Positions 10,053 through 59,844 of a stretch of DNA of 64,000 nt are shown in pieces. Made by a program: the position numbers and the translations under genes. The notes below the pieces were generated by a model. It made no database searches. It was not told the origin of the DNA and worked only from the letters and a program-made list of their open reading frames with translations. Every line of letters begins with the position of its first letter. Within the stretch, counting starts at the first letter, position 1. The DNA is from Pontederia crassipes (Eukaryota > Streptophyta > Magnoliopsida > Commelinales > Pontederiaceae): the NCBI GenBank assembly GCA_030549335.1, contig CM060194.1:67306077-67370076 (forward strand). Reading direction: 5' to 3'.

Positions 10053-10355
10053 ATGGCAAGATGGTTGCTTGCAGCTGTCGGCAACGCCTACGGAGCCAAT
10101 TCAGCTGTGCAGGCGTCCAGCGCGCTCTTCATACTCTTCGCAGTTCTCGCGACGATCTCTATCTCAGCGGTGGTTGTGTTCAACTGTGGAGACAGCGGTA
10201 AGCGAAGGCGTCACTACGGCGATGGCGGCGGCGGCGGCGGTGGTGATGGCGGAGGAGGCGACGGCGGTGGTGGTGGTGGTGGTGATGGCGGAGGCGGCGG
10301 CGGAGGTTGCGGTGGAGGTGGCGGCGATGGCGGTGGCGGCGGCGGTGGATGTTAA
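10053..10355 (+). CDS. Small membrane-anchored glycine-rich protein, copy 1
   Basis: Encodes about 100 residues. Residues 1-20 (MARWLLAAVGNAYGANSAVQ) are followed by a hydrophobic segment at about 24-44 (ALFILFAVLATISISAVVVF), then NCGD, a short basic patch (GKRRRHY) and a tail of Gly runs spaced by Asp with one internal Cys, ending in Gly-Cys. This start is chosen because the N-terminus is conserved in copies 1, 2, 4 and 5. Context: one of five + strand copies, with its own TATA box. Gly/Cys tails behind one membrane segment are common in small plant glycine-rich proteins, but I do not recognise a named family, so a function at the membrane or wall is a guess. A longer overlapping frame from GTG 10042 is a shadow. 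GTAAGCG after the Cys-Gly-Asp-Ser-Gly region resembles a splice donor, but the open tail conserved in copy 4 argues for an intronless gene. Confidence 0.75.
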   Translation: MARWLLAAVGNAYGANSAVQASSALFILFAVLATISISAVVVFNCGDSGKRRRHYGDGGGGGGGDGGGGDGGGGGGGDGGGGGGGCGGGGGDGGGGGGGC

Positions 10356-11247
10356 GGGGTTGGCTGGCTATCGGTATGATCATTTAAGTCTTTGGACGAA
10401 TACATCTGTATGCGTGGTACTGTTTTTCCTTTACGCTTGTTTCACTTTTCTGATCCAAACACACAGCGCATGTAATTATTAAAGACGACGTTCTCTACAA
10501 TTTATTGAAGGTTTAAAATTTTATTTTCTGTTCTCCAAAATTTATTGAAGGTTTAAAATTTTCTTTTCTGTTTATGTGTGTTTCAAATCATGATATAAAC
10601 ACCCATTGATCGATGTGTGTGTGTGTGTCCAAGGGGGAGAAAAATTGAAATCTAACGAGTGATTCATAGCACTTTGATCTACGAGTACTCTGGCCATTGG
10701 ACAAGGGGCCCTTCATTGCAGAACGGCAAGAAGACCAACTACTAATTTACTAACATGGCTTCAGATGCCAAATTACGTCCCAAAGGATGAGAATATATAA
10801 TGATATTTTAAAAAAAAATAAAAATATTAATTGAGACATACAGAGTAATTTATCCTCTCACATAGTCATGACGATAAAATCAATCCGAAAAATAGTAATG
10901 ACGATGATCCAACAGCTTGTGTTATTTCTATCACTCCAAAACCGATAGAGGATTTCTTGCAAACGAATGATCTTTTTATTTGATTAAATTGGATATTAAA
11001 TTATAATTTCATTTCAGCTTGTTTTAATACTTTTTGTTTAATTAAGTCTCGAGTTCAAATTTATAAGACATTTTTTTTTGTTAAATGTCGTAGTATATAC
11101 CATAGTGAAAATTTCATTAGATCCAACAGCTTGTATGTATGGCGGCGGGAAAAAAAAAGTAGTTGCAAATTGCACGATTGGAAAGTAGTTGCAAAGCATC
11201 CGATATATTAAAACAGCAATTCATATTTTTAGGTGTAGAGTAATGTT
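10356..11247 (+). other. 3' UTR and conserved downstream block, copy 1
   Basis: Starts with TTGGCTGGCTATCGGTATGA, which follows the stop in copies 3 and 4 as well, so it is probably 3' UTR. A 40-bp stretch around 10495-10570 (ATTTATTGAAGGTTTAAAAT) is duplicated in tandem here but single in copies 2-4. Further on, CATGGCTTCAGATGCCAAAT, AGTCATGACGATGA and the AAGTAGTTGCAAATTGCACG stretch recur in the units of copies 2, 3 and 4. No reading frame is conserved. Confidence 0.6.
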
Positions 11248-11851
11248 ATGCACCGACAGGCGGCGGCTGAAGGAACCCATTCAACCTTGGCGGCGGTAGC
11301 AAGCCCGACCGGGCTTGCAGCAGAAGGCGGAGGCCGTAGCAATCCCGACCGGGCTCGCAGCGGCAGGCCACGTCCGCAGAAGCCCGATCGGACTTCCTGC
11401 GGCGGCGACGGCTATAACAAGCCGGATCTGGCTTGCAGTGGCCTTCTCCGGCCAGATCCCGCTAGAGTTGAGAGAGGGAAATCATGAGAGGGGGGAGGCC
11501 GAAGTGTACTGTATATGGTGGAATCGGCAGAGGGGTGCGAGCGTGCTTTCAAGGGGGATCGCTGGAGCGGGAGCAGTGTCGTCGAAGGCGTGCAGAAGTC
11601 CTTCGAAGGGGGATCACTGGGGCGGGAGCAGAATCGCCGAAACACGAGCAAAGCGGCAGCGTTTTGGTCAGCTGCAGGTCGCCAGAGGGTGAGCGGGAGC
11701 CGAAGTCCACTGGGGTTGCGCGGGGGAGAAATGTACGGGAGAAGAGGGGGGCGGGTTAATTATTGGAAGAGCTTTGGACGGACTGGACGGCTTCGTCAGT
11801 TGATTATTATGATATAAAATAATTTATTTAGTGACTTTACTACATTATAAT

Positions 11852-12524
11852 TGTTACGATTTCTGCACGAGAGAAATTACGCATCGCGAGAAAACCCGAG
11901 AAATTTAAGGCGGCACAGAATTGTATTAGATGGAAGAAACAGAAGAGGATTACAAGATCAGATTGATCCAGGATTGTCCAGGATGGTCTTACAAACCTTG
12001 ATTATAAGTCCTTTTATAGGGCCTTGGAGAAACAACTCCTACTCTAACTTAAGGACCTAATCCTACTAGGCATGTAAGTCCCTTCTCTAGAAAAACCTCC
12101 TTGGACTAGGAGTAGAAATCTGACTTCCTGAAGACCCTTGAAGATCTCGGCCAACTTGAATTCCTTCTTGGAATCAAATTGGGCCGGGCGCCCACCTGGC
12201 GTCCGCCACGCCCATGCGCGCCCTGGCTGTCCAGTCCGAGTCCCACTCGGACTGGGACTCTCCAGACGTCCCTGTTGTCTTCAAGTCTTCCTCCACGTCC
12301 AGACTCCATATCCAAGTGCTCCTCGGTCCAGAAGGGAGCTCGGCCCTCCAAGAATCCGTCATATCCTTCTCGATATCGGAAATTGGCCGACTCCCATTCC
12401 TACTAGAAGTAGGAATCCTTTCGACCTTGCACTTCTCGTCCAAGCATCTCTCGAAGTCTCTCTATTACTTCTTTGGATCCAAACAGATTTTCAGTTAAAG
12501 TAGGATTTAAGGCATTATTTAACA
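11852..12524. mobile_element. Solo LTR, 673 bp
   Basis: Begins TGTTACG, ends TTTAACA and is flanked by a perfect 5-bp duplication ATAAT (11847-11851 and 12525-12529). The paralogous sequence at about 49014-49018 has a single GTAAT and no insert. There is no internal coding region, so this is a solo LTR, the usual remnant of recombination between two LTRs. Family not determined. It is younger than the CACTA-like debris it sits in. Confidence 0.85.
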
Positions 12525-12574
12525 ATAATTTAAAATATTTTTTAAATTTTCATGAATTGAACCATGGAAACTTT

Positions 12575-19114: not shown

Positions 19115-19339
19115 ATGGCAAGATGGCTGCCTGGTGCTGTCTGCAGCGCTTATGGAGCCAATTCAGCTGTGCAGGCGTCCGAAGCGCTCTTCGCAGTTCT
19201 CGCGACGATCTCTATCTCAGCAGTGGTTGCGTTCAACTGTGGAGACAGCGCTAGCTGCTATAGCGGCGAGGGCGGCGACGGCGGATGTTGGGATTGCTGT
19301 GGCTGTTGCTATAGACAGACGTTCTCTACAATTTATTGA
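19115..19339 (+). CDS. Small membrane protein, copy 2, altered Cys-rich tail
   Basis: Encodes 74 residues. The N-terminus (MARWLPGAVCSAYGANSAVQ), membrane segment (ALFAVLATISISAVVAF) and NCGDSA match copies 1 and 4, with a small in-frame deletion in the membrane segment. The tail is different: it is short, has only a few Gly, carries CWDCCGCCY, and its last residues (RQTFSTIY) come from sequence that is 3' UTR in the other copies. A deletion joining the tail to the UTR explains this. The start is the conserved ATG. Its TATA box is separated from the gene by a MITE, so expression is doubtful. It is either a diverged working paralogue or an early pseudogene; the open frame alone does not decide. 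Confidence 0.5.
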   Translation: MARWLPGAVCSAYGANSAVQASEALFAVLATISISAVVAFNCGDSASCYSGEGGDGGCWDCCGCCYRQTFSTIY

Positions 19340-28934: not shown

Positions 28935-30109
28935 AGGGCAAGATGGCTGCTTGCTACTGTCGGCAACGCCTACGGAGCCAATTCAGCTGTGCAGGCGTCC
29001 GGAGCGCTCTTCATGCTCTTCGCAGTTCTCGCTAGGGCTGAGCACAGACCGGGCCGGTCGACTCGGCCCGGCCCGACCCGGAAAATTAGAAAAATAACTC
29101 GGTCCGAATTTAATCTGGGTCGGGTCCGGGTCCAAATATTGAAAAACCCGCCGGTATCGAGTCAGGACCGGGTTCAGGGTCCAAATATCCGACCCGAACC
29201 CGGCCCGGATTAATTATATATAAACCCATCTCACCGCATTGCATATTCATTTCACACCGTCTTCTTCTCTCTCTCATCTCTCTCCGTCTCTCACCCTCTC
29301 CGGCTCTCGCTCTCCGGCTCTCCCTCTCTCTCTCTGTCTGTCACGGCGGCGACGGCGGCGGCGACTCCGACCACCCTCCCCTCTCCTGACTCCCTTTCTC
29401 TCTCCCGAGATCCGGCACATGGCGGCGCCTGGCGGCCGTCAAGCGCCGGATCGCGGCACTTGGCGGCCGGATCGCGGCACTTGGCGGCCGGATCGGCCGT
29501 CAGACGCCAGATCCCGACGCCTGGCGACCGGATCCAGCCGCCATGTGCTGGATCCCGGCGCCTAGTGGTTGATCGCGACGCCTGGCGGCCGGATCGGCCG
29601 TCAAGGCGCCGGATTGCAGCGCCTAGCGGCCGGATCGGCCGTCAGGCGCCAGATCGGATCCCAGCGCCTAGTGCCCGGATCGGTCGTTAGGCGCCAGATC
29701 TGACCATTGGCGGCCGATCCGGCTGCTAGGCCCTCCCCCTCGTCCCCTCGGTCCCAAAGCGATTCTCGACCGCCAAAACTATTCCCGGACGCAAAACCTG
29801 ACCAATTCCCGGATTGTCGGGTCTGACCCGATACCGAACCCGGCCGGGTTCGAGTCCGATACCGGGTCGAAAAATTTTGGACCCAGCGTAATTCGGGTCG
29901 GGACCGGGTCCGCGTAGACCCGGACCCGGTCCCGATTTTTCTCAGGCCTAGTTTTCACGACCATCTCTATCTCAGCGGCGGTTGTCTTCAACTGTGGACA
30001 CAGCGGTAAGACAAAGCGCGGCTACGGCTACGGCGGTGGCGGAGGTTGCGGTGGCGTCGGCGGGGGTTGTGGCGGTGGCGGTGGCGGTGGGGGTGGCGGT
30101 GGATGTTAA
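28935..30109 (+). pseudogene. Glycine-rich membrane protein gene, copy 3, disrupted
   Basis: Both halves of the gene are recognisable. 28935-29032 matches the start of copy 1 up to the middle of the membrane segment, but the start ATG reads AGG and the remaining ATGs are out of frame. A 918-bp hAT element (29033-29950) then interrupts the coding sequence. The second half resumes with ACCATCTCTATCTCAGCGG and encodes the end of the membrane segment, NCGHSGKTKRGYGYGG and a Gly tail with two internal Cys and a final Cys before TAA at 30107. The tail is otherwise open, so the loss is recent compared with the array. The downstream block matches copies 1 and 4. Confidence 0.8.
29033..29950. mobile_element. 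Non-autonomous hAT element inside gene copy 3
   Basis: Ends TAGGGCTGAG and CTCAGGCCTA are inverted repeats with one mismatch. The flanking 8-mers GTTCTCGC (29025-29032) and GTTTTCAC (29951-29958) differ by two C-to-T-type changes and correspond to one GTTCTCGC in copy 1, which gives an 8-bp duplication typical of hAT. Subterminal regions carry repeated GGGTCGGGTCCGGGTC motifs. The core at about 29410-29720 is a GC-rich array of GGCGGCCGGATCG-like units. No transposase; the reading frames at 29239-29690 are by-products of the array. Confidence 0.8.
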
Positions 30110-34143: not shown

Positions 34144-34144
34144 C

Positions 34145-37100: not shown

Positions 37101-37241
37101 ATATTTCGTAAAGGGAGATAACTATTTCGCAGTTAAGAATATTATTCTATTATAATATATTTTTTGAAATTTGTATGAGTAATAAGTAAATTCTAATTGA
37201 AAGCTGGAAATTATTTATCTCTAAAAAAATACTGTTTCCAA

Positions 37242-37244: not shown

Positions 37245-37294
<50 letters not shown>
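37243..37294. repeat. (TA)n microsatellite
   Basis: About 25 TA units. The paralogue at 8568-8584 has only about 8 units and no insertion. Confidence 0.95.
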
Positions 37295-39348: not shown

Positions 39349-40247
39349 CGGGTTGGCTGGCTATCGGTACGATCATTTAAGTCTTTGGACGAATACATCT
39401 GAATGCGTGGTACTGTTTTTCCTTTACGCTTGTCCAAACACAGCGCATGTAATTATTAAAGACGACGTTCTCTACAATTTATTGAAGGTTTAAAATTTTC
39501 TTTTCTGTTTATGTGTGTTTCAAAACATGATATAAACACCCATTGATCGATATCTATACATGTCCAAGGGGGAGAAAAATTGAAATCTAACGAGTGATTC
39601 ATAGCACTCTGATCTACGAGTACTGTGGCCATTGGACAAGGGGCCCTTCATTGCAGAACGGCAAGAAGACCAACTACTAATTTAATAACATGGCTTCAGA
39701 TGCCAAATTACGTCCCAAAGGATGATAATATATAATGATATTTTTTTAAAAAAATAAAAATATTAATTGAGACATACAGAGTAATTTATCCTCTCACATA
39801 GTCATGACGATAAAATCAATCCGAAAAATAGTCATGACGATGATCCAACAGCTTGTGTTATTTCTCTCACTCCAAAACCGATAGAGGATTTCTTGCCAAC
39901 GAATGATCTTTTTATTTGATTAAATTGGATATTAAATTATAATTTCATTTCAGCTTGTTTTAATACTTTTTGTTTAATTAAGTCTCGAGTTCAAATTTAT
40001 AAGACATATTTTTTTTTGTTAAATGTCGTAGTATATACCATAGTGAAAATTTCATTAGATCCAACAGCTTGTATGTATTGCGGCGGGAAAAAAAAAATAG
40101 TTGCAAATTGCACGATTGGAAAGCAAACAAATAAGTTCTATTTCTGGCAAATACTAAGATCATAAATACAAATATCTCACTTAAAAGTTAATCCCATATA
40201 TTAAACAGCAACTCATATTTTAGGCGTAGACTAATGTTGTCCATGCA
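39349..40247 (+). other. 3' UTR and downstream block, copy 4
   Basis: Collinear with 10356-11252 after copy 1, without the 40-bp tandem duplication seen there. It ends at the target site of the first CACTA element. Confidence 0.65.
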
Positions 40248-40264
40248 CCGCACTGCAAGAAAAA

Positions 40265-40985
40265 GCAAAATTTTCGACAAGTCAATTTCGACGGGCGAAA
40301 ATTCATCTAAAGTATCGAAAGATTTTTTGAAGGATCATAATATCCGTCGCAATTATGATCGGAGAAATTTTTGATGGTTGTGGCCGTCTAAACTTACGAC
40401 GGTTTAGAAATCGTTAAAACTTTCGACGGTTAGAACCATCGAAAGTTTAGATAGATGAATATCCATCGAAAGTTTCGATGCTCGTAGCCGTCGAAGAAAG
40501 TGAATATGGGCGATTAGTTTTCCATGTGATTTTTCGACGGCTCCGACTGTCGAAAGTTTCGACGTTTCTATAACCCTTCGAAACTCAGCGGCCGTCGGAA
40601 TGTGTTAACAGTAATATTACTTATTACTTTATTTATTTTTTATATACCGACGATTCTGATTGTCGAAAGTTACGAGGGTTTAAAGAACCGTAAAAAACCG
40701 TCAAAATTTGAATTATAATTTATATTTTGTTTCGACGGTACGTAAGATATATTACGTTATATATACATCTAACCGTAATATTTCAATTGATATATTTTTT
40801 TATGTTTCGACGGTTCGCAATATATATACATCTAACGGTAATATTTCAATTGATATATATATTTTTTGTGTTTCGTCGGTTCTGCGAACCGTCAAAACTT
40901 TTAACGATTTGGGCCATCGAAATTTGAATTAATATTTTATATTGTTTACCTATCTTTCGATAGTTCAGACCGCCGAAAATGGACG
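40265..40985. repeat. Left subterminal repeats of CACTA 1
   Basis: Many short dyads of the type TTTCGACGGTTAGAACCATC/GACGGTTTAGAAATCGT, spaced about 20-60 bp. In CACTA elements such repeats are binding sites for the TnpA-type protein (family knowledge). 40727-40900 also has two copies of ATATACATCTAACSGTAATATTTC. Confidence 0.75.
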
Positions 40986-42427
40986 AACCCTCCCTTATAA
41001 ATAGCCGACCCTTCTGTTCCAGTTTTGGTTTCCCTCCCTACCGATCCGCCGCTTTCGCCGTTTTGCACCGCCGGCGATGTCCGATTTGGCCTCTGCAGCC
41101 CTGCCCTCCAACATTTGCGCCCGCTGCCGCCTGCGAGACCCGCCGTCACCTGCGCGAGCTGTCACTGCAACCGCGTTGATCTGCTACAACCAATCAGCTT
41201 CGGCGCAGGTGCGTTCCCCCCGATCCTCCGGCCACTCCCCTCCACCCTTGCCCACGCTGCCGTTCGATTCGCCTAATTTGATCCGGCCGCGGCAACCAGA
41301 TCCGATCCGATCGCTGCGGCCAGTTCCGATCCGGCCGTTGTGGCCATATCCGATTTGGCAGCGGCGGCCAGGTCAGCTCCGACCGTTGTGGCCATATCCG
41401 ATCCGGCCGCGGCGGCCAGATCAGCTCCGACCGCAGCGGCCAGATCCAATTGTTCATTTCCGTAGCCGTCGAATCTAGCCGACGAACACCAGATTCGGAC
41501 GGCAACCACTTCCGGCGGGGTAGACTTTGTGCAGCTTATTTTTTTCTCTCATGTATGTTGACGTACTTGCATTTTTCCGTACAAAATTTTGTTTTCTTGC
41601 TTGATAAGCATTGTGAGGTTTCTCCTTTCGACAAGTTCAAAAGTATAAGAATGCAGAAATTGAATGTTACATAAATTTGGAGATTATTTTTTATTGTCTT
41701 ATGTTTTATTTACATGCAGGTTATTGGAATTATAGAAATTGTCTCTGTCCAAAAGACATAAGTTATTTATTTTTAAGTCATTACTATTTCTATATTTTTC
41801 TGTCGTAAATATGAATTCTATTTATTGTAGTAATTATGAAATGTGTAATATTTTAAAATTGTCTATTTTAGATTTTATTCATTAGTTCTAATTTCTTATT
41901 TTAGAGACCAAATATAACTGCTTTGTGTTTATGATGTTTTTTTGATATTTTATTTAGAACATTTATTAGTGATATTTAAGATGTGAACCTTTGTAGCGAA
42001 ATGAAGTGGCATGAAATACGTAATATTTATTAGTTATATTTTAGATTTATTATGTGAACATTTATTAGTGATTATGAAGTGGCATGATATTTAATATGTG
42101 AACATTTATTAGTTCTATTTATTGTAGTAATTATGAAATACGTAATATTTTTAAATTCTCTATTTTAGATTTCATTCATTAGTTATAATTTCTTATTTTA
42201 GAGTGCAAATATGATTACTTTGTGTTTATGATGTTTCTTTGATATTTTATTTAGAACATTTATTAGTGATATTTAATATGTGAACCTTTGTAGCAATGTT
42301 TTATTTAAATTTATTCTACATCCCAATCCCTTTTCTTCATGTCTCCAAATTGAAAAAAGTGTCATGATTAAATAATGACATGCCTCTTATTTCAAAATTT
42401 TAAAAATTAATTAGTATAACTTACAAA
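40986..42427 (+). other. Leader region of CACTA 1
   Basis: A GC-rich block at 41010-41520 with repeats such as GGCCATATCCGATCCGGCC is followed by AT-rich DNA with internal duplications (GAACATTTATTAGTGATATT appears near 41958 and 42255). This is probably promoter, untranslated leader and an intron of the transposase gene. The overlapping GC-rich frames at 41025-41509 are not genes. Confidence 0.5.
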
Positions 42428-45400
42428 CGATCATCGATGGATGTACAATAGAAATAATTTCGGCCGTAGAGGTTTGACACAAGAATTCATAAATGGCGTT
42501 GAATATTACACTAGTCTGGCTTGTCAATCTTTGTAATTTCAATGAGAAGGAACAATTAGGTGTCCTTATTTGAAATGTGTTAGCACAAAGTTGCAAACGT
42601 TAAAGACAATTAAGTTATTTGTATAGAAAAGGGTTCAAACCAAATTATTGGCAATGAGATGATTTAGGTGAATGAGCACCATCAACAAGCGTGCAAAATC
42701 AAGATTTTCATTATGACGATCCTCATGAAGTATTTACTCCGGGATACGAACAATTAGTTTATGACGCTGCTATAATTGAGTATGGTAATATAGGATTTGA
42801 ACATGATCAAGAGACACCAAATTCAGAAGCAAAAGATTTTTTTAAGTTGCTAAACGCTTCGAACCAACCCTTATTGCCCGAGTGTGAAAGTCATTCTGAA
42901 CTATCACTTGCTGTTAAAATATTGAATCTGAAAGCAGATCACAATATTTCAAAAGCATATTTTGATGCATTTATAAATATTTTAAAAGGGGTCACACCAA
43001 TCGGGACTCGCATTCCTAAAAGTTATTATAGGACAAAAAGACTTGTTTCTAAACTTGGTCTCGGTTCAACTAAAATAGATTATTGTCGCAATGGTCGTAT
43101 GTTATATTATGGTGACGACGTCAATCTCAATGAATACAAATTTTGTGGGGCCAAACGATATAAGGTGACTAACAAGACTCAAGTAGTTGCAAAGAGAATG
43201 TATTACTTGCCTCTTATTCTAAAACTTAAAAGACTGTACTCATCTCTAGGGTCAACATCACAAATGAAGTGACATGCACAGCATAATACTTCTGAAGGTG
43301 TCATGCTTCACCCATCGGATGGTAAAGCGTGGAAATATTTTGATCGTATGCATCCAGATTTTGCTAGTGAAGAAAGGAACATAAGGCTCGGACTATGCGC
43401 AGATGATTTTACACCGTACAGTCAGACTTCAGTTCCTTATTTATGTTGATCGGTCATAGTAACACCATATAATTTGTCGCCTAGAATTTGTATGTCCGCA
43501 CCTCATATGTTTTGGACATTCATTACTCTTAGTCATTACAGTCCTAAGCAGAAGATAGACGTATATTTACAGTCGCTAATTGACGAGTTAAAAGAATTAT
43601 GGGATGGTATCGTCGCTTATGACATGTTGACTAAATGAAACTTTACCTTGAAAGCTGCATTATTATGGATAATTAATGATTTTCCTGCCTATGGAATGTT
43701 ATCTTGTTGGATGATTATAAGAAAATTAGCATGTCCATATTGCATGGAACACTCAAATGCATTCACTTTGAGAAATGGGGGTAAAAATAGTTGGTTTGAT
43801 TGTTATAAACAATTTCTTCCAGCAGATCATCTTTATAGAAATAATAGAAATGCATTTCGACGGAACAGAATTGTGCACGACATGCTCCGGTCAGACGATC
43901 AAGACTTCAATTATTTTGCATTGTCAACGCTCTATGTAGAATTATCGACGAACCAAATGTCACATACAATGAATGTTTGATACGTTGTATCTTTTGGGAT
44001 TTACCATATTGAAAAGATTGTTTGATACGTCATAATTTGGTTGTCATGCACATTGAGAAAAATGTTTTTGAGGATATATTCAACACTATAATAGACATTA
44101 AGGGTAAAATAAAAGACAACATCAATGCGAGACTAGATTTGAAGGAGCACTGTCGATGGCAAGAGTTACACATAATTAATTTTCCTAACGATAGATTATC
44201 TAAGCCGAAGGCAAGTTATGTTCTCACGAAAGAGCAAAAGACGCAAGTGTGTCGATGGATCCAAGAGCTTAAAATATCAGATGTTATGCATCAAATTTAA
44301 CAAGATGTGTGGATATAAATAACTTGCGTTTATTTAGCATGAAAAGTCACGACTATCATATCTTTATGGAAACCTTGCTTTCAACTGCATTTTCATCATT
44401 GCCGGAGAAGATTTGGAAGCCGATCACGGAATTGAGTCAATTCTTCATAGATTTGTGTTCAACAATAACTGAGGAAAATATAAGGCAATTGGAGCATAAT
44501 ATTTCGATAATTTTGTGTAAGTTGGAACGAATATTTTTGCCAGGATTTTTTTATTTCATGGAGCACTTACCTATTCATCAGCCATATGAAGCAAGGGTTA
44601 GTGGACCCGTACAATATAAATGGATGTATCCATTTGAAAGATATCTTAATCGAATTAAAAGGACGGTTAAGAATAAAACACATGTCGAAGGCTCCATATG
44701 TGAAGCTTATATGATTCAAGAGGTTTCGTACTTTTGTTCATACTACTTTGATTCTCATGTTAAGTGTGCAAGAAACAAAGTTCATCAGAATGATGAAGTT
44801 CCGAAAGAAAGGTTTACTGTGGCAACGTTGTTGATTTTCAATCAATTGGGACGACATTATGGAATGCCAAGAAGTAAATGATTGAATGATGCGAAATTCA
44901 AATCAGCCACGAATCATGTCCTCCTAAACACTCAAGAGGTGCAAGGATACATTAAGTAAGTTTATGTTCAACACATTTTTCTTTTTGTATCATAAAACTA
45001 AAAATTAATTAATCTATCATTTCATATGTAGTGCTTTCTTATAGTACCACAATATCCTTGAAGAACATATACAAGATAGAACCGAAAATGAATTTGCATC
45101 ATCGTTTCAGGATCAGGTAACTCCTCCGACGTATATGTAGCAATTGTAGACGATGATTTTATGACATTCATTTTCATTTTAGGTACACAGTACCGCAATC
45201 TCTACTACGCTAGGTCTCCATGATTTGGATGGGGATCGAGTCGAGTAGTCAAAAGTTGGCCAGTGTATTTTGTGAACGGTTACAAGTTTCACACAAAAAA
45301 TTAGTCAAGAGGGAAGAAAATCATGAACAGTGGCGTCTGTGTCAAAGGATCCACCGACGGGAAAAATGAGCATGATTATTATGGTATTCTCAAAGACATA

Positions 45401-46050
45401 ATCGAGCTAGAATACACTGGAGGTAATAGAGTCACATTATTTGAATGTAATTGGTTTGATCCGAAAAAAAGAGGGATGCGAGTTCATAAAGATTTCAAAA
45501 TAGTTGAAATACGTCACAATATGTGTTATGAATGTTTTGATCCATTTATTATTTCATCATCTGCAAGGCAGATATATTATGTACCATATTCATATAAAAC
45601 GAGGGACAAAGATCAATGGTGGATTGTAATTAAGACAAAGGCAAGAAGTAGGATAGAAATTGACGGTACATTGCAAGTTGCATACCAAGATGACTCGTCT
45701 ACCTCAGTGGCAGCAATTGTAGATACTGAGTTAATCGAAGATCTACAAGATTCGGAACAGTTATTTGAAGACTTTGATAATGCCGAAATACAAAATGACG
45801 ATGAAAGCACGAAAGAAGATGAATTTGAAACTACACCATCTTCGGAGGACGATGATGATGAATATCAATCATGTAGCAATTCAAATGATGATGAATTATG
45901 TCACTACTATCTAATATTACTTTCATGTCACATGAATCATGTTATTACTATCCGTTGTTATAATTTAGATATCTTTTATTCAAATGGTTTATTTAAATAT
46001 CATCTGTCAGTAAATGTTAAACATAGTTTGCGATGCATGCTGACGATCAT
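42428..46050 (+). pseudogene. CACTA 1 TnpD-like transposase gene, disrupted
   Basis: Domains in order: a damaged Transpos_assoc domain from about 42428 (RRGLTQEF-type remnant; the start ATG present in CACTA 2 is missing); Tnp2 transposase at about 42690-44300, recognisable by LPLILKLKRLYSS, NIRLGLCADDF, the INDFPAYGMLSCW stretch and KLACPYCMEHS; DUF4218 at about 44390-44760 (LERIFLPGFFYFMEHLPIHQ, WMYPFERYLNRIK, EGSICEAYMIQEVSYFCSYY); DUF4216 at 45370-45670 (VTLFECNWFDP, RQIYYVPY); then an acidic tail. GTAAGT after 44955 and a matching acceptor near 45031 are conserved in CACTA 2 and look like a real intron. In-frame stops (after QMK at 43272, near 43448 and 43637) and frame changes near 44000 and 44300 break the frame. 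Confidence 0.85.
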
Positions 46051-46177
46051 TCGGGTCGACAAATGCCTGACGAGGACAGTGCATTTTCATATTCAATTCC
46101 TTCTCGTGAGTGTTTAAAATAATAATCACAAATTTACAAATTAAAAATGGTGAATTAATTTGTTTATTTTGAAAAAG

Positions 46178-47840
46178 CGCCTCCGGATATTAGGAATTGA
46201 TTCTCGAGTTATACCTACAATTCAATTCTTGAAGATGCGACACAAGATGTAGTCAAACGACAAGTTATCACGATGTAACTATAGTAATTGTTGTATGAAA
46301 TATAAATTTAAAGTGCATTAATTTTCTTTTCATGTAGATGTTTCGTTTCGGGAAAGAAAAAAACAAGAGAAAAGAGAAGGTCATTCCTACAGATACTTCT
46401 TCAGACAGGGTGCCTAGACCACTTATGGGCATTCACATAGTTGAACGACAGTCTCCTCCGCCAACTCCTTCCTCTCACGCAGAACCCGATAGAGCTCTTC
46501 ATATTGTGGACGTGGAGACATAATTACCGGAAGAACCTTCAGATGCAGGCTCATCAAATCCTAAATACAAAGCATACGTACAACTAGATGGTGATTTAGG
46601 GTAAGTGTTATTTTATGTTTTTCATAATGCATACATTTTGTGATTTTCAATTTCATAATTTATAATTTTTTATTCGTAAAAATTTGTACTATCGAAATCC
46701 GCGGTTGCCGTAGTTACCAAGGTACTACGACATAGGCATACTGATGCGTGGCTTACATGGAGAGAAGTTTCATATGCTACAAGACAAATGTTATTTACAG
46801 AATTTCAGGTAACCTCGGAAGCCCATTTTGGTCATTTAAATTTATCTTCATACTAATTCAATTATTTTTATGTACATGAAGGCTAATGTGTGGTGGGATC
46901 CAGAGCGTATGGAACAAATGTGGAAGGCTTTTAATTCTCGGTGCTCAAAGAGATTGTCCCGATATTTTCGAAATCTCGAGTTGTTGGAGAATGACCCAAT
47001 TGGATCCCTGAGGTTGTTTGGATTGAATTGCTATGGAAATGGTCTACTGAGGAGTACAAATTTAAATGCGAAAAAACAAAGATAAGTCGAGAGTCCGACC
47101 AAGGAGTCTGCTTCCATTCGAGTGGATGTATATCCAGGATTATGATTATGAAAAGAAAAGTATTTGAATAAATTATTATATTTTAAAAAATATTATACTT
47201 TATTTGACATTTTTAACTGCAAGAGAAAGAGACGGATAGAGCACCTACTCAGGATGAAATATTTCTCAGAACTCGTCAAAAAAATAAAAATAAAAATGGG
47301 TTTCATCGTTTGCTTAGGAAACATATGTAAGTATAATATAGTTCCTAACATAAGGTAGTAAATTCATCATTTTAAATAATATAGTTGATATATTTTTAAA
47401 AAAATTGAGGAGGGTTACAAAACAAGAGAAGTCGAGCACATTGCACAGGAGGGTTACAAAATAAGAGAAGTCGAGCACATTACGCAAGCCACGCAGGAGG
47501 AGACCACACCGTTGACCTCTCGACAACTTTGGACGAACCACGTGGCGTGAAGAAAGATCACATTTACGGCCTCAGTTCATCTGTTAGTAGCACGGATATT
47601 GGATATGGCCGTAAATCGATATCCGATTCCCAAGGTCAAGGTATGCAATAAATGTTTGACAATATGTGGGAACAACGTTTATCCGATGTACGACAGGAGA
47701 TTAGCTAGGAGGTTACGTAGGAACTCAGAAAAGAGTTGGAAGAACGTGGGCGATGAATGGTATTAGCTCAAAAGAAATAAATGAAGAAAATGATATGTCA
47801 AATGATGCGTGGCGAGCTTGACGACAATGTAGTTTTGTAG
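46178..47840 (+). pseudogene. CACTA 1 second gene (Transposase_24-like), disrupted
   Basis: Corresponds to 56323-57963 in CACTA 2. The start ATG reads GCG. Then come exon pieces with FRFGKEKNKRKEKVI (46338), VWWDPERMEQMWKAFNSRCS (about 46885) and a C-terminal stretch of charged, coiled-coil-like sequence (about 47690-47840). The WDPE..W..F..R..K.L pattern resembles plant Transposase_24 proteins, which are often the second product of CACTA elements (family knowledge). Stops and frame changes are scattered through it. Confidence 0.6.
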
Positions 47841-48044
47841 TGATGTAGTATTTGACATTTGGACATTTGACGTTATGATGTCTTGACATTGGACGTATTT
47901 CAATTTCATTTACTTTAGTTTGGACATAAATTATTTATTTAATTTGGTTTTAAATTATTTACTCAAATGATTTATTTCAATGATTTATTAAATGTTTTTA
48001 ATAAATGCTTTTAATATTTATACGCTTGAACCAAATTTTTTTTA

Positions 48045-48500
48045 TTTGTTCTGATAGCTCGGACTGTCGATAGTATCATAATCAAAATCGATGATTTGAA
48101 CCGTCAATAACCATCGATAGTTTGAAGCATAAAAAATTATAGACGGTCAGACTCGTCGATAAATCGACAGTTTCAGCCGTCCAAACCTATCGACAGTTTG
48201 AGCCATCGAAACCTATCGATGACTCAAATCGCCGACGCACTATCGACGTCTAGAACTGTCGATAGTATCGACAGCTCAAACCGTCGATATATATCGACGG
48301 TTGAAACCGTCTTAACTCTCCATTGTTCGACGACTCAACTTGCCATCGTGACCGTCAAAGATTTTGGCGGTTGTGAGTGACCATAAAAAATAATTTGCGA
48401 CGCGTAATTTTCGAACAGATGCTATCCATCGAAAATGGTCATTTTTGACGGTTTTACATAAATACAGACGGTCATAACTGTCGGTAAATGAGCATTTTCT
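48045..48500. repeat. Right subterminal repeats of CACTA 1
   Basis: About a dozen dyads such as ATCGACAGTTTGAGCCATCG and TCGACGGTTGAAACCGTC, inverted relative to those on the left, up to the terminal repeat at 48495-48507. Confidence 0.75.
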
Positions 48501-48507
48501 TGCAGTG

Positions 48508-50620: not shown

Positions 50621-50639
50621 TTACACTACAAGAAAGTGA

Positions 50640-51270
50640 CCTTTTTTCGACGGGTGATTATCGACGGGCAGGAAACCGTTTGAAGTACTGAAGGCTTTTT
50701 CGACGGGTCTACTTCTCCGTTGTAATTAGAGACGGAAGGTTTTTTGACAGTTGCGACCGTCTTAAATTTCGACGATTTTAAAACCGTCGAAATCTTTCGT
50801 CGTAGGTTTCGATGCTCGTAACCATCGAAACATGTCAATGAGTGCGTTTAGTTCTCGATTGCCTATTTCGACGGCTTAGACTATCGCAATTTTTGACGTC
50901 TCTCCACCCGTTGCAAATTTCGACGGTTCTAACCATTGGAATATTACTTATATAAAATTTATATTTGCAATGGTTATTATATTTTTTAATATATTTTTCT
51001 TTTTATTTACCGATGTTTTTTATCGTCTGAAGTTGCGACGGTTCACGTAACCGTCGAAACTTTCAGCGGTCAAATCCGTTTGAATTGCAAAGTTTAACCG
51101 TCGAAACGTGCCTGCTACGTAATGTATATGTTTCGGCGGCTAGAACCGTCGAAACTTTCGATAGTACATTGAACCGTCGAAAGTTTTAACAGTTTTGGTC
51201 GTCGTTATTTTATAGTATTTTTTGAATTTTGATGGTCCGGACCGTCAAAAATAGAACCATCTATAAGTAC
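50640..51270. repeat. Left subterminal repeats of CACTA 2
   Basis: Dense GACGG..CCGTC dyads (for example CGGCTAGAACCGTCGAAAC near 51135), same type as in CACTA 1. Confidence 0.75.
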
Positions 51271-52580
51271 CCGACACTCCCGTCTTTTTTCGATTTGGTT
51301 CCCTTCTTCCGCGCTGGCCGTCGTTGATTAGCCATCACCGCACGTTCTCGAAGTTCACCGGTCAAGCAGCCGTCACCGCGTCAGTCAGATTTGGCCGGCG
51401 ATTCGATCTGCGTCCGCCATCGCCTCCGTTCGCTGTCGCCTCCATTCGAACGGTCGCCGTTGATCGCCTCCGACAACCGTTCCTTGCTCCGATTCGTGTC
51501 GCCACCTGCGCGCCACCGCTGCAACTTCGTCGGCCACCGCAGGTACGATCGAACCCCCTTGCTCCGATTCCCCGCTCGCTTTTCTCCGCCCTTCCCGATG
51601 CCGGTGTTCGGCCATATATTCGATGAATCTGGCCACATTCAGCTGGTCGCAGACCCGGCGGCCAGATCCAGTGGCGTCAGCTGGATCTGGCCGGCCGCGG
51701 CAGCCAGATCGAGCTGACATGGCCAGATCCGGTCGGCCGTCCAGATCTGGCTGGCGGAGATCCCTCCATTCGCGGCTGCGACCAGCCAGATCCGGCCGCC
51801 CCCGTTGGAGTTTTTTTTTCTATAATTTGTATAGGTTTTTTTTGAATGATATTGATGTACTTGCATTATACGTTCAGGATTTTGTTCTCTAATTTGACGA
51901 GCACGGTGAGGTTTCTCCTTTGGACAAGTTAAAAATTGTAAGAATGCTAATTTTGTTCTATTTATATGCAAATTTTATTTTTGTTTACTTATGTTCTATT
52001 TATTTCGCAGATTATTGAAATATTTTTATCATTGACTATTACTTCAAAAGATGTAAGTTATTTATTTTCATGTCATTATTATTTCTATGACATAATTATT
52101 ATTATTATCGCATATTATTTATTTGTTAAGTAAATTATATGACATATTTTAGATTGCCTATGATTGTGTATGATTTATGTCATTATTATTCACATGTTTC
52201 TATGAAGTATTTTAGATTGTCTACTTTAATTTTCGTTAATTTTAGAATGCAAATATAATTAGTACGTGTGTATGATGTTTAATTGCTATTTTATTTAGAT
52301 CATTTCTTATAGAATGCTATTTTATTAGTATGTGGGTATGATGTTTAGTTACTAATTAGTGATATTTAATATGTTTAATTTTAATATGAAAACTTGTATA
52401 TGTGTTTTGAACGTTCACAGATTTGTAGCGATTTTTTATTCATGTTTGTTTACACCAGAGCCCCATTCTTTGTATGACCACATTTAAAGATTCATATAGA
52501 GAGAAGATTATATACTGATATGGCCCTTATTCGAAATTTGTAAAAATTAATTAGTCTAACCTTCCAATGATGTAGAAATC
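51271..52580 (+). other. Leader region of CACTA 2
   Basis: A GC-rich part (51300-51800, with GCCAGATCYGGCCGG-like units) and an AT-rich part up to the first transposase ATG, parallel to 40986-42427. The overlapping frames at 51324-51971 are by-products of the GC-rich units. Confidence 0.5.
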
Positions 52581-55500
52581 ATGTCTCCACCAAATGATCG
52601 TCGATGGATGTACAATATAAATAATTTGGGCCGTAGAGGTTTGACACAAGAATTCATAGATGGCGTTGAATATTACATTAGTGTGGCTTGTCAATCTTTG
52701 CAATTTCAACGGGAAGGAGCAATTAGGTGTCCCAGTTTGAAATGTTATAGCACAAAATTGCAAATGTTAGAGACAGTCAAGGTTCATTTGTATAGAAAGG
52801 AGTTTAAATCAAATTATTGGAAATGGGATGACTTGGGTGAAGGAGCACCATCAACGAGTCTGCCTAATCCTGCAAGCTATTTTGTCGATCATTGACTTCG
52901 CAATACGAACAATTAGTTTACGATGTTGCAACAACTGAGTATGGTAACATAGGATTTGGACAGGCTGAGGAGACACCAAATTCAGAAGCAAATGTTTTCT
53001 TTGAGTTGCTAAACGCTTCGAGCTAACCCTTGTGGCCCGGGTGTGAAAGTCATTCTGAATTATCACTTGCTGTTAGATTGTTGAATCTGAAAGCAGATTA
53101 TAATATTTTACAAGCATGTTTTGATGCATTTATAGATATTTTAAAAGAGGTCACACTGTCGGGGCTCGCATTCCTGAAAATTATTATAGGACAAAAAGAC
53201 TTGTTTCCAAACTTGGTCTTAGTTAAAAAAATAGATTGTTGTCGTAATAGATGTATGTTATATTACGGTGATGACGTCAATCTAAGATAATGCAAATTTT
53301 GTGACACCGAACGATATAGAGTGACTCACAAGAGTCAAGTTGCTGCGAAGAGGATGCACTATTTGCCTCTTATTCTAAGACTTAAAAGATTATACTCATC
53401 TCGAGGGTCAGCGTCGCAAATGAACTGGCATGCACATCATAATACTTCTGAAGGTGTCATGTTTCACCCATCGGATGGTGAAGCATGGAAACATTTTGAT
53501 CGTATGCATCCAGATTTGGCCAGTGAAGAAAGGAACATAAGACTCGGACTATGCGCAGATGGTTTTACACCGTACGGTCAGACTTTAGTTCCTTATTTAT
53601 GATGGCCAATCATAGTAACACCATATAATTTGTCGTTTGAAATTTGTATGTCCACACTTTATATGTTTTTTACTTGCATTAATCCTATTCCTCACAGTCC
53701 CAAGCAGAAGATAGATGTATATTTACAGCCTCTAATTGACGAGTTAAAACATTTGTGGAATGGTGTCGTCGCTTATGATGTGTCGACGAAACAAAATTTC
53801 ACCTTGAAAGCTACATTATTGTGGGCAATTAATGATTTTCCTGCATATTGAATGTTATCTGGTTGGATGACTATAAGGAAACTAGCATGTCCATATTGCA
53901 TGGAACACTCAGGTGCATTCATTTTGAGAAATGGGGATAAAAAATAGCTGGTTTGATTGCCATAGACATTTTCTTAGAGCAGATCATTCGTACAGAAATA
54001 ATATCGACGGAATAGAGTTGTGCATGACATGGCTCCGATCAGACGCTCAGGACCTTAATTATTTCGCATTGTCAATGCTCTATGTAAAATTGTCGACGAC
54101 CCAAATGTCACAAACAATGGGTATGTTATTTCTCATAATTGGACCAAATGATGTATATTCTGGAATTTACCATATTGGAAGGATGGTTTGATACGCTACA
54201 ATTTGGATGTCATGTACATTGAGAAAAATGTGTTTGAAAATGTATTCAATACTGTAATGGACATTCAGGGTAAAACAAAGGACAACCTCAAGGTGAGACT
54301 AGATTTGAAGGAGTATTGTTGACGGCCAAAGTTGCACTTAATTAATTTGCCTAATGGTAGATTATCTAAGCCAAAGGCAAGTTATGCTCTGACTAAAGAG
54401 CAAAAGACTCAAGCGTATCGATGGATCCAAGAGCTGAGAATGCCGGACGATTATGCATCAAATCTGACAAGATGTGTGGACATGAATAACTTACGTTTAT
54501 TTGGCATGAAAAGTCATAACTGTCATATATTTATGGAAACTTTGCTTCCTACTACATTTTCATCCTTGCCAGAGAAGATGTGGAAGCCGATCACGGAATT
54601 GAATCAATTCTTCAAAGAATTGTCTTCCACAACATTAACTGTGGAAAATATGATCCAATTGGAGTGTCATATTCCGATAAATATCACGTAAGTTGGAACG
54701 AATATTTCCATCAGGATTCTTTGATTCCATAGAGCACTTACATATTCATCTGTCATATGAGGCAATGGTAGGTGGACAAGTACAATATCGGTGGATGTAT
54801 CCTTTTGAAAGATATCTTAATCGAATTAAAATTATGGTTAAGAACAAAGCACGTGTCGAAAGATCTATATGTGAAGCCTATATAATTCAAGAGGTGTCGT
54901 ACTTTTATTCCTACTACTTTGATTCTCAAGTTAAGTGTGCGATGAAGTTCTAGAAGAAAGGACTACTGTGGCATTCTTGTCGATCTTCATTTAGTTGGGA
55001 CGATATTTTGGAAAGCCAAGAAGTAGATGGTTAAGTGATGCAGAATTCAAGTCTGTCACAAATCATGTCCTTCTAAATACGCAGGAGGTGCAAGGATATA
55101 TTAAGTAAGTTTATCCTCAATGCATTCATTTTTTTGTATTGTGAAAGTATAAATTGATTAATCAACCACTTTGTATGTAGTGCTTTCATACAGTACTACA
55201 ATGTCTCTGAATAATATGTACAAGATAGAATCGAAAATGAATTCGCATCGTGGTTTAAGGATCAGGTAACTCTTACGATGTTGGTCTTGCTCATGTGTGG
55301 ATGATTATTTCTTGACATTATTTTTCATTTTAGGTTCTTAGTACCGCGATTTCTATTATGTCTGGTCTTCAGAATTTGGCATGGGGACCGGCTCGAGAGG
55401 TCAAAAGCTGACAAATGTATTTTGTGAACGGTTATAAGTTTCACACGGAAAGTTAATCGAGAGGGAAGAAAACCGTGAATAATAGTGTCTATGTCAAAGG

Positions 55501-56050
55501 ATCCACAGGAAAAATGAGCGTGACTACTATGGTATTCTCAAAGACATAATTCAGCTAGGATACACAAGAGGTAATAGAGTCATATTGTTTGAATATAATT
55601 GGTTTGATCCGAAAGAAAAAAAGAGGGATGCAAGTTTATAAAGATTTTAAAATAGTTAAAATACGTCACAATAGGTGTTATGAACGTTTTGATCCTTTTA
55701 TTATTTCATCCTCTACAAGACAGATATAATATGTGCCGTATCCAGAGAAGACGAGGGACAAAGCACAATGGTGGGTTGTAATTAAGATGATGGCAAGAAG
55801 CAGGATAGAAATTGATGGTGCATTACAATATGCATACCAAGATAACTTACATACTTTGGTGGCACCTATTGTAGGTACCGAATTAGTCGAATATCTACAA
55901 GATTCATAATAGTTATTTGAAGACTTCGATAATGTCGAGTTAGAAAATGACGACAATGCTTTGGCTAAAGATGAATTTGAAACTACGTCGTCATCAGAGG
56001 ATGATGATGACGATGAATATGAATCATGTGATAATTCAGATGATGAATGA
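52581..56050 (+). pseudogene. CACTA 2 TnpD-like transposase gene, disrupted
   Basis: Starts with ATG and an intact-looking Transpos_assoc domain at 52581-52850 (RRWMYNIN, GLTQEFIDGVEYYISVA, IRCPSLKC, WKWDDLGEG). Tnp2 follows from about 53030: LPLILRLKRLYSSRGSASQM, NIRLGLCADGFTPYGQT, AINDFPAY. DUF4218 at about 54550-54940 (LERIFP-type and EHLHIHLSYEA, WMYPFERYLNRIK, SICEAYIIQEVSYFYSYY). A donor at about 55105 and the next exon at about 55180 agree with CACTA 1. DUF4216 lies at about 55520-55830, then an acidic tail ending at TGA 56048-56050. The frame switches at least four times and has several stops, for example after 52895, 53602, 53851 and 54691. Confidence 0.85.
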
Positions 56051-56322
56051 TGTTATTATTAGCCAATGTCATTTTCATGTAATATTATTATGTTAAGACT
56101 ACCCGTTGTTGTAATTTAGATATGTTATATTTGAATGGTTTATTTAAATTATCATTTGTCATAAAATTGTAAACATAGTTCCCGATGCATGCTGACGATC
56201 ATTCGGATCGATGAATGCCTGACGAGGACGGTGCATTTTCATATTTGATTCCATCTCATGAGTGTTTAAAATAATGATCACAATTTCAAAAATAAGTGAA
56301 TTAATTAATTTATTTGTTAGAA

Positions 56323-57963
56323 ATGCCTCCGGATATTAGGAATTGGTTCTCTAGTTATACATACGATTCCATTCCTGAAGATGCGACACAAAATGTAGCC
56401 GAACATCAGGTCGAAACGTTGTCAATTTTACGATTTGCATGAAATGTAAATTTAAAGTGCATTAAATTTTGTATTGTGCAGATGTTTCATTTTGGGAAAG
56501 AAAAAAACAAGGGAAAAGAGAAGGACGTCCCTAGAGATACTTCTTCAGACAGAGTTCCTAGATCAGTCACGGGCATTCGCATAGTTAAACGGTAGTAGTC
56601 TCCTCCATCGGCTCATTCCTCTCACGCTAATTTCGTGGGGCCCTCTGATATTGCCAATCTAGAGACACAATTGCCGGAAGAACCCATTAGAACTCCTGAT
56701 TCTGTGGAACCTTCAGATACAGCCTCGTCAAATCGTGTGTACATAGCATACACGCAGCCAGATGGTAATTTAGGGTAAGTGTTATTTTTATATTTTTCGA
56801 AATGCTTTCATTTTGTGATTCATACATCGGATTTTATAATTTCAAATTCGTAAAGTTTGTACCATCGAAACCCGCGATTGCCGCAATTACTAAGGTACTA
56901 TGACATAGGTATATTGATGCGTGGCTTACATGGAGGGAAGTTCCATATGCCATAAGACATATATTATTTAATGAATTTCAGGTATCCTCGAAAGCCAATT
57001 TTGGTCATTTAAATTTATCTTCATACTAATCTAATTATTTTTATGTACATGAAGGCTGACGTGTGGTGGGATCCCAAGCACATGGAACAAATGTAGAAGG
57101 CTTTCAATTCTCAGTGCTCAAAGAGATTGTCTGCGATGCTTTCGGAAGCTCGAGCTACATGAGAATGACCCAATTGGATCCTTGAAGCTGTTTGGATCGA
57201 ATTGTTACGAAAGTGGTCTACCGAAGAATACAAATTTAAATACAAAAAAGCGAAGACAAGTCGAGAGTCCGACCAGGGTTCATGCTTGTATTCAGGGAAT
57301 GTGTATTCACGAGCACGATTGCGAAGAGAATGGTAAAGTCTTTCTCCGAACTCATATTGCATAGACAAAATATTTTACTTTATCTAACATATTTAACTAC
57401 ATGAGGAAGAGACGGATAGACCACCTACTCAGGATGAAATATTTTCCGAACTCGTCAGAAGAAAAATAAACAATGGGTTTCATCATTTGCTCGAGAGACA
57501 TATGTAAGTAAATCTATTTGATGTTATTTTTTTTAAAAGTTCAGGAGAGTTACATGACATAAGATAGTAAATTCGTCATTTTAAATAATATAGTCGATTT
57601 GTTTTTTAAAATTTCAGGAGGGTTACAAAACAAGAGAGGTCGAGCACATGACGCCGACAACTTTGGACGGACCACGTCGGAGTCAAGAAGGGTCGCATTT
57701 ATGATCTCGGATTATCTATTAGTAGTGCAGATATTGGATATGGTCATAAGTCGGTATCAGGTTCCCGAAATCAAGGTATGCAATAAATGTTTGACATGAT
57801 CAGGCAAGAGATCAGACAAAAGATTACGCAGGAATTCAGAAAAGAGTTCCAAGAACGTGAGCGTCATAATTTATTAGCTCAAAATAAAGAGATGAAGAAA
57901 ATGATGCGTGACATGATGCGTGGCGAGTTCGACGATGACGACGACGACGAAGTAGTACTGTAG
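56323..57963 (+). pseudogene. CACTA 2 second gene (Transposase_24-like), disrupted
   Basis: Starts ATG-CCT-CCG (MPPDIRNWFSSYTYDSIPED), continues in exon pieces FHFGKEKNKGKEK (about 56481) and VWWDPKHMEQM (about 57060), and ends in a clean 59-residue C-terminus at 57787-57963: charged, heptad-like (IRQEIRQKITQEFRKEFQ), then MMRGEFDDDDDDEVVL and a stop. Splice-like borders (GGGTAAGTG near 56773, TGCAG before ATGTTTC at 56480) are shared with CACTA 1. Stops such as the one in MEQM-stop near 57094 break it. Confidence 0.65.
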
Positions 57964-58194
57964 TGTGTTTGTGTTGTATTTTACATTTGGACATTTGACA
58001 TTTGACGATGTTGTATTAACACTTGACGTTATGCGTGACATTCAAATACAATTTCGTTATAATTTATTTAATTTGCTTTTTTTATTAAATTAATTTAATT
58101 TATTATTGTTGATTTATTTTAATTTAATTAATTCAATTACTATTGTGTCGATTGTTTATTTAATTTATTTATGTCAATTTTCTTTTTTTTAAAA

Positions 58195-58605
58195 TTGTTT
58201 TGACGATACCGTCGATAACTATCAATGATTTAAATCGTTCAAATTTATAGACGGTCGGACCCGTCGATAATTATCGGCGATTTTAACCGTCAAAAGTTAA
58301 TGACGGTTTGAGTCATCGAAACACAATGGTGTTATCGACAGCTCGAACCATCGATTTAAATTTTCAACAGTTGGAACCGTCGATAGTATCGACAGTTCAA
58401 ACCGTTGATACATATCGATGGCTAAAACTATCTTAACTCTTCGTTAGTCGACGGCTGAGCCCGTCAACTCGACTGTCGAAGATTTCAACGGTTGTGACAT
58501 AACCGTCAAAAATAATTTGCGACGCGTCATTTTTGCGTGGATGCGATCCGTCGAAAAACATAATTTTCGATGATTCTTGACAAATTACATAAAGTCAAAA
58601 TCATT
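58195..58605. repeat. Right subterminal repeats of CACTA 2
   Basis: Dyads such as TCGACAGTTCAAACCGTTGA and ACGGTTTGAGTCATCG up to the terminal repeat, same design as in CACTA 1. Confidence 0.75.
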
Positions 58606-58633
58606 TGTAATTGGCTACTTTCTTGTAGTGTTA

Positions 58634-59637
58634 CACGCCCTGTGTACACAAAATATGAATCATGAACACACACAAGTCCAAATATTAGATGTGGGGATCG
58701 TGTGCATAAATATGCTATACATATTTTTCTCATAAATTAATATATAATTTTTTATTAAGCTGATTAAGAAAAATAATGTTTTACAGTCATTCTACCTCTT
58801 CAAGCTAAAATAATTTATCTTTCAGAAAATAAAAGAACTAGAAAAAAACATTATTACAAAAAGATTTAAAGATCTATTACAAACTGCATGGATCGTGACG
58901 AAGGGCATTTGCATGTCAACGTCGCGGAGCTTTTCTTGGAATCACCTGCATATGTCGACGACCACTCCATAAATTAAATATCTGTGCGGAAATTTGAGAT
59001 GGATACGCAAAGCATTGCGTACTTACGTACGCAATTCATTGACTAATCAAATAAATCAGGTACCGAGGAAACTTAGCTTGATTATGAGCAATATGAAACC
59101 CCTAATTAGTTACAGACTGAGACAGCTCATGAACAGCTATAAATTACAATTTACAGTGAGAATCATCAATTCTTTTACCCATTTTCATTTAGTGTCATGA
59201 CTCATAAGCTTAAGTTTTAGTTTGAGTAGTTTTGGAGTCTTGATTACGATGTAAATCATAAAGAAAATATAAAATGCATTAAGAAATTTTAGGGAACGGG
59301 GTTTTCTTCATTCAACTTTAATTTGGAAAAAAAATAATTAATTTGAGATAAATGGAAATGACTCCTACTTCAGTTGAAGCACAATCTTAATAAGAACACA
59401 ATATTAATGCAAAGACTTGATATTGTTGCCGAATAAAATTTCAGTAAAAAGCGCAAGCGTTGCTATCTGTCCTCCTAATTGTTCCTAAGTCGTTAAAGCA
59501 TTAATTTATTCCATTAATCACATATATATATATACACATTTGATTCAGATCCCCATGTTAATTACGACCTCAAATTGAAGCATTGAAAGTAGTCGTGACT
59601 GTGAGAGAGGACTGCCCAAAAGAAAAAGTAGCGGTGA
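58634..59637 (+). promoter_or_regulatory. Upstream region of gene copy 5
   Basis: Paralogous to 25978-27180 but not to the promoters of copies 1-4. It lacks the fused CATGCA-TATAA motif. A TATATATATATACACAT stretch at about 59523-59540 lies about 100 bp before the gene and could serve as TATA region. The second CACTA element ends only 1 kb upstream of the gene. Confidence 0.5.
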
Positions 59638-59844
59638 ATGATGGCAAGGCTGTTGCTTGCTGCTGCAGGCAACGCCTATGGAGACAATTCAGCATTCTTA
59701 ATGCTCTTGGCAATGGTTGTCACCATCTCCATCTTGGCGATGGTTGTGTTCATGTGTGGAGACGGTGAGACTAACATATGGCTGTGGTGGCGATGGAGGT
59801 GGCGGTGGCTGCAGCGGAGGTGGCGGTGGATGTTAAGGGGTTGA
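59638..59844 (+). pseudogene. Glycine-rich membrane protein gene, copy 5, tail frameshifted
   Basis: Two adjacent ATGs (59638, 59641); the second matches the family start. Residues MARLLLAAAGNAYGDNSAFL, then MLLAMVVTISILAMVVFMCG with the conserved Cys-Gly-Asp. It lacks the AVQASSALF-type insert of copies 1-4, so it may keep an older form. After GDGETN the open frame reads a Trp/Arg-rich end (WLWWRWRWRW..). One base over, from TAT at about 59779, the sequence reads YGCGGDGGGGGCSGGGGGGC and a stop, exactly the family tail. So a small indel between the membrane segment and the tail shifted the frame. It is either a young pseudogene, a sequence error, or a gene with a genuinely new tail. Downstream sequence (AGTCTTTAGACGAATACATC) is family 3' UTR after a 300-bp interruption. 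Confidence 0.65.

Follow-up and report, generated by a model that had tools for sequence, protein, structure and literature searches.

What are the five short, similar open reading frames that follow one another along part of contig C12 of Pontederia crassipes, and do they represent genes? The window analyzed here, the whole 64,000-nucleotide stretch C12:67306077-67370076 (genome 1.13 Gb, 43 contigs), contains five homologous loci, c1 to c5, with starts at 10053, 19115, 28935, 39058, and 59641; each encodes a short N-terminus followed by a single hydrophobic span and a Gly/Cys tail, most of which is lost in c2. Sequence comparison suggests, with a probability of about 0.85, that they belong to a family of small plant genes, tandemly arranged and evolving by birth and death, for single-span membrane proteins with a Gly/Cys tail. 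This fits the proposal of an earlier note on the same DNA, which described a family of small one-pass membrane proteins with Gly/Asp/Cys tails and with copies at different stages of decay.

Run against the window, a tblastn query of the c1 N-terminus recovered all five copies where that note had put them (c1, 2e-34; c4, 3e-29; c2, 6e-19; left and right parts of c3, 5e-15 and 1e-9; c5, 1e-11), and all remaining rows in the window had E values of 0.18 or more. The membrane segment that it had seen in every copy is present in five of five, with a best 19-residue Kyte-Doolittle mean of 2.13 to 2.86 (computed for c3 on its two coding pieces joined), and the translations agree with it that a Gly-rich tail is encoded in all but c2 and is out of frame in c5. 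The copies are as follows.

10053..10355, plus strand: c1, intact; 100 amino acids, with the N-terminus, one span (residues 25-43), and a Gly/Asp/Cys tail with a terminal Cys
19115..19339, plus strand: c2, altered; 74 amino acids, with the span shortened by a net three codons; a deletion has removed the usual stop and most of the Gly tail, and the 5′ flank differs
28935..30109, plus strand: c3, dead; ATG changed to AGG, plus a hAT-like insert
29033..29950, unstranded: hAT-like insert in c3; 918 bp, ends TAGGGCTGAG / CTCAGGCCTA, 8-bp target duplication GTTCTCGC / GTTTTCAC
39058..39348, plus strand: c4, intact; 96 amino acids; its counterpart is the C11 gene at 23715815
59641..59844, plus strand: c5, D type; 67 amino acids, with N-terminus and span intact and the Gly tail out of frame

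Glycine makes up 38 of the 50 tail residues in c1 and 34 of 46 in c4. These two copies are intact, c2 has an altered tail, and c5 is frameshifted, all as the earlier note had it; its description of c3 as insertionally dead was incomplete, the start codon having changed as well. The 5′ flank of c2 resembles those of other copies over only about 40 bp (by eye), and the N-terminus shows net length changes of 9 bases in c2 and 18 bases in c5, which favors the gene-family reading. In c3 the frame 3′ of the insert stays open to GGGC and the usual stop. The 10-bp inverted ends of the insert match at 9 of 10 positions and its target duplication at 6 of 8; its class was assigned from these ends and the duplication length, by what we take to be the hAT criteria. 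An additional in-frame ATG precedes c5 (59638), whose Gly-rich frame still closes with GGGGGC and a stop (59834-59836) and is in frame in the D-type counterpart on C11. Between 59770 and 59844 the frame slip converts the Gly tail of c5 to a Trp/Arg-rich stretch, probably meaningless. A gene model using a splice donor GTAAG (codons 49-50 of c1, c3, and c4, located by eye) appears less likely, because the copies share an in-frame stop behind the Gly tail.

The family extends well beyond the window. A whole-genome search with one 60-residue query, whose counts are lower bounds, gave 17 matches, equivalent to 16 loci since the two pieces of c3 count once, and a scan of both fetched arrays added a locus with a broken frame (67247009). 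There are at least 17 loci: 10 on C12 in about 174 kb, 6 on C11 in a colinear inverted array, and 1 on C8. The five copies described earlier are correct for the window; as the extent of the array they fall short, for it continues on both sides, to at least 10 loci on C12. If a member counts as intact when it has a start codon and its frame stays open to the end of the Gly/Cys tail, 8 of the 17 qualify (A12, B12, c1, c4, B11, C11c, D11b, and C8), the longest having 213 residues; the last residue is Cys in B12, c1, c4, B11, C11c, D11b, and C8, and A12 ends in Cys-Val. The A type is represented by a protein of 213 residues on C12 and by a copy with an altered tail frame on C11, and the B type by proteins of 174 and 163 residues. 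C-type members on C12 comprise c1 to c4 and a 75-residue member with a shortened tail, and on C11 an intact member and another that stops behind the span. The D type comprises c5 and a broken copy on C12, together with one intact copy and one with an altered tail frame on C11. The C8 protein (112 residues, L009:2649-2984) carries His clusters inside its Gly tail.

Members share a common plan. A conserved motif covers about 24 N-terminal residues (MARxLLAxxGxxxGANS...) and is followed by one span and an NCGD-like motif; then come a basic stretch, a linker that varies in length, and the Gly/Cys tail, which in most intact members closes with Cys; the basic stretch after the span occurs in the A, B, C, and C8 types, and D-type members are without it. 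In an alignment of 11 proteins M1, R3, L5, G14, N16, S17, L28, A30, T34, and G46 are invariant; C100 is listed as nearly so, yet falls in a gap in L019 and before a final Val (Cys-Val) in L011. By the positive-inside rule, basic residues flanking a span mark its cytosolic side. Because these residues follow the span, the product would probably be a single-span protein with its N-terminus outside and its tail in the cytosol. It is possible, as a guess, that the tail serves in protein-protein contact or binding next to the membrane. More tentatively still, the MARxLLAxxGxxxGANS N-terminus and Gly/Cys tail could define an undescribed family of single-span plant membrane proteins, in which the terminal Cys may be lipid-modified or metal-binding and to which C8 adds its His clusters. 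On that view the copies may diversify mainly in the tail, whose length and frame vary from copy to copy in the two matching arrays.

The main alternative to an anchored protein is that the hydrophobic stretch is an unusually late, cleaved signal peptide and the product a secreted Gly-rich wall protein, similar to class I or II of the plant glycine-rich proteins (GRPs). Those classes combine a signal peptide with a Gly-rich region, according to a GRP review (PMC5852109), and the window family has a Gly tail with Cys; moreover, the C8 protein scores 27.2 bits against the Pfam family GRP (PF07172), below the curated cut-off of 30, in a match that begins at residue 25. The other ten sequences scanned gave no PF07172 row, and the hydrophobic run has a late start, near residue 25, and reaches F43; as in an anchor, basic residues come after it in the A, B, C, and C8 types. 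We therefore regard a secreted product as unlikely; of the two possibilities in the earlier note, "secreted or membrane," the membrane-anchored form is favored.

The ten N-termini chosen for testing show purifying selection. They cover all types (c1, c4, C11c, Cc12, D11b, B12, B11, A12, A11, and C8; Cc12 and A11 were retained despite altered tails, and c2, c3, c5, Cc11, D11a, and the copies at 67399051 (D type) and 67247009 were left out). Under MG the ratio of non-synonymous to synonymous change (omega) is 0.446, a better fit than omega 1 (P 2.7e-5), and under GY it is 0.55-0.58 (P 0.0012 and 0.0035 against omega 1, with kappa on a four-value grid). Full-length pairs show an excess of third-position changes (16/24 in c1/C11c, 23/34 in c4/C11c, 24/44 in B12/B11), as does the N-terminal pair B12/C8 (22/44, P 0.016).

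Several results weigh against a family of selected genes. The full-length numbers are soft, because Gly repeats align ambiguously. Selection is weak inside the window, where a shuffling test for few amino acid changes gave P values of 0.09 to 0.26 in all eight pairs and the third-position excess fell below 0.05 in only two of the eight (c1-c5, 0.011; c4-c5, 0.020). The ratio of non-synonymous to synonymous divergence between c1 and c4, which the earlier note had proposed as a check, is 0.33, on six changes only. Between c1 and c5 the coding part is no better conserved than its surroundings, with substitutions at 28 of 126 positions in the N-terminus and 26 of 231 in the 3′ flank; c5 is possibly a mosaic, or else coding constraint is no stronger than that on the flank. 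The A pair lacks a third-position excess (11/32; omega 0.72), the N-terminal excess reaches only P 0.053 in c1/C8 and 0.10 in c1/B11, and, on few changes, omega is 0.81 to 3.48 in D pairs and 2.42 in C11c/Cc12, with four non-synonymous and no synonymous changes in Cc12/Cc11. Such non-significant tests, together with the alteration of three of the five copies and a tail that amounts to a GGN repeat, are what one would expect if the array were non-coding debris, GC-rich simple repeats with meaningless open frames. That explanation is quite improbable, given an N-terminus conserved in 17 loci, among them open frames of 163-213 residues, and omega below 1 (P ≤ 0.0035) on ten N-termini. Conservation of this N-terminus, one of the two points (with transcription) on which the earlier note had made the genic status of the array depend, extends across several subfamilies when checked inside this genome only, and the matching C11 array suggests an ordinary duplicated gene family kept by selection.

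How did the copies arise and move apart? Comparison of the window with itself reveals homology reaching far past the genes, between the c1 and c4 units listed below and, in shorter stretches, beside c2, c3, and c5.

9574..11185, plus strand: gene tract around c1; 63 substitutions in 1525 positions against 38585-40123
38585..40123, plus strand: gene tract around c4; homologous to 9574-11185
5564..8588, plus strand: upstream part of the c1 unit; 268 substitutions in 2954 positions against 34140-37265
34140..37265, plus strand: upstream part of the c4 unit; homologous to 5564-8588
40251..48507, plus strand: CACTA element 1; 8257 bp, 3-bp duplication CCG; DUF4218, DUF4216, and Transposase_21 just under cut-off
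50624..58630, plus strand: CACTA element 2; 8007 bp, 3-bp duplication TTA; Transposase_21 above cut-off
4285..5645, plus strand: downstream flank without an adjoining gene in the window; homologous to the downstream flanks of c2, c3, and c5

Downstream of the gene tract, c1 and c4 differ at 89 of 506 positions. Start-to-start distances from c1 to c5 are 9062, 9820, 10123, and 20583 bp, in agreement with the earlier spacing of 9-10 kb, or about 20 kb where two CACTA elements intervene. These elements were assigned from a 3-bp target duplication and CACTA-type ends in both, the end motif being the one that we take to be typical, and from Transposase_21, which exceeds the cut-off only in element 2; the scan covered four open frames of element 1 and one of element 2, five in all. 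The c1 unit is uninterrupted at the site of element 1 (near 11255), and without both elements the distance from c4 to c5 is 4313 bp. Because the two elements fill most of that gap, the 9-10 kb period is not intrinsic, and at least between c4 and c5 it is a product of insertions.

The presence of transposons in and between the units might suggest that the genes are the cargo of a transposable element that spread them. This is very improbable: homology extends along long flanks whose order is the same on C11 as on C12; units are interrupted, not delimited, by the CACTA and hAT-like elements; and 16 of the 17 loci found lie in two arrays (although scattered distant copies are possible, given a genome search with one query). 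A tandem origin is preferred, in which the copies would have been made by unequal exchange and transposons would have spaced them apart and killed one.

The C11 array is colinear with that of C12 and inverted, with rows of at least 350 bases at 73-95% identity; the lowest values come from side matches to other units. Synonymous divergence (dS) of the N-terminus between counterparts is about 0.08 for the A and B types, 0.12-0.14 for the C type, 0.017 for c5/D11b, and 0 for Cc12/Cc11 (43 codons in each of the last two). The two arrays would suit segments of a fairly recent genome duplication better than alleles; most dS values fit the former, and the low values leave room for the latter. A single C gene on C11 lies between the counterpart of window positions 4047-8677 and the counterparts of 48800-49821 and 58629-60154 (c5). 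On C11 only 3276 bp separate the starts of the C and D genes, so both CACTA elements are absent there; the sites corresponding to the insertions are not clean empty sites. The C11 counterpart of the flank at 4285-5645 follows the Cc gene on its downstream side; on C12 the counterpart of that gene lies to the left of the window, at 67295414.

Either C12 gained copies c1 to c3 or C11 lost them. In the upstream block, identity is 86.0% between C11 and the c1 side, 83.3% between C11 and the c4 side, and 84.0% between c1 and c4; in the gene tract C11 is 90.1% identical to c4 and 87.6% to c1. Loss on C11 is possible because its upstream block is nearer the c1 side and c1 and c4 differ as much. The low divergence of c1 and c4 in the gene tract, together with a C11 sequence that is nearer c1 upstream but nearer c4 in the tract, points to later gene conversion, which has probably kept the two copies alike; selection on the tract is an alternative.

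Other features of the sequence around the genes were noted. An upstream ATG occurs 7 bases before the start, or lost start, at 10046 (c1), 28928 (c3), and 39051 (c4); its frame is not conserved, because it overlaps c1 for 51 codons, reaches a stop after 11 codons in c4, and is different in c3. At 9980-9993, 67-78 bases before the start, CATGCA, which presumably resembles the RY seed motif, adjoins a TATA-like stretch in c1 and also in c3; CATGCA occurs alone in c4, c2 has neither, and c5 has only TATA-like stretches farther upstream. A stretch M-A-S-x-x-K-[LF]-R-x-K-G-stop lies 3′ of the gene (10755-10790, 19516, 31484, 39690, and 60428), kept in four copies and with an altered end in c5, possibly as part of an untranslated region or as a small exon. 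Codon-position patterns in eight pairs of homologous stretches gave no convincing further coding frame. Between 11253-11851 and 48508-49018 differences avoid one base in three (e.g., 12, 13, and 2 at the three positions), which is opposite to a coding pattern, and do so in overlapping frames on both strands. An inverted repeat at 20298-21663 (arms of about 500 bp that are 85% alike, and inner repeats of 224 bp) is of the fold-back type, a fragment of Copia-type reverse transcriptase (RVT_2) lies on the minus strand at 63618-63866, and Rfam at gathering scores had no match in the window.

Is the family already known under another name? Pfam returned nothing above cut-off, and sub-cut-off rows only, for 5 window and 6 outside sequences; NCBIfam (c1 and c5 N-termini only) and a PDB sequence search with the c1 N-terminus (up to E 10) gave no match. 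A literature search on N-terminal peptide strings found no paper, and one on plant Gly-rich transmembrane families found nothing usable. Scanning viral contigs with alignment A1 yielded 102 pattern matches, none of them a relative. The array settles no long-standing question. Its analysis makes a defined gene family, with intact and testable members, out of a series of open frames that had no name, and offers a clear case of transposons apparently spacing out and partly killing a tandem array, for which the second array serves as a yardstick.

The plant GRP superfamily (classes I-V) has in common with the window family a Gly tail of GGX repeats, Cys residues, and small size; however, the five-class table of the review has no class defined by an anchor and such an N-terminus, both of which are features of the window family, and a term count of the review finds the word "transmembrane" absent (PMC5852109). 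The c1 and c4 tails show the very Gly-rich region with (GGX)n repeats of class I, but where class I has a signal peptide the family has a more anchor-like hydrophobic run at residues 25-43, and in place of the Cys-rich C-terminal domain of class II it shows a last Cys and scattered Cys residues, with no compact domain by eye. PF07172 is similar in its hydrophobic stretch followed by a Gly-rich tail, and differs in that the conserved N-terminus of the family lies outside the match. CYSTM proteins are also small and Cys-rich with one span, but theirs sits at the C-terminus, and none of the 11 sequences scanned gave a CYSTM row in Pfam. As expected of a birth-and-death family, homologous copies lie side by side, 10 on C12 and 6 on C11, and include intact, altered, and dead members. 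What is new here is a family without a name in the libraries searched; it is otherwise an ordinary tandem plant gene family, with several copies decaying.

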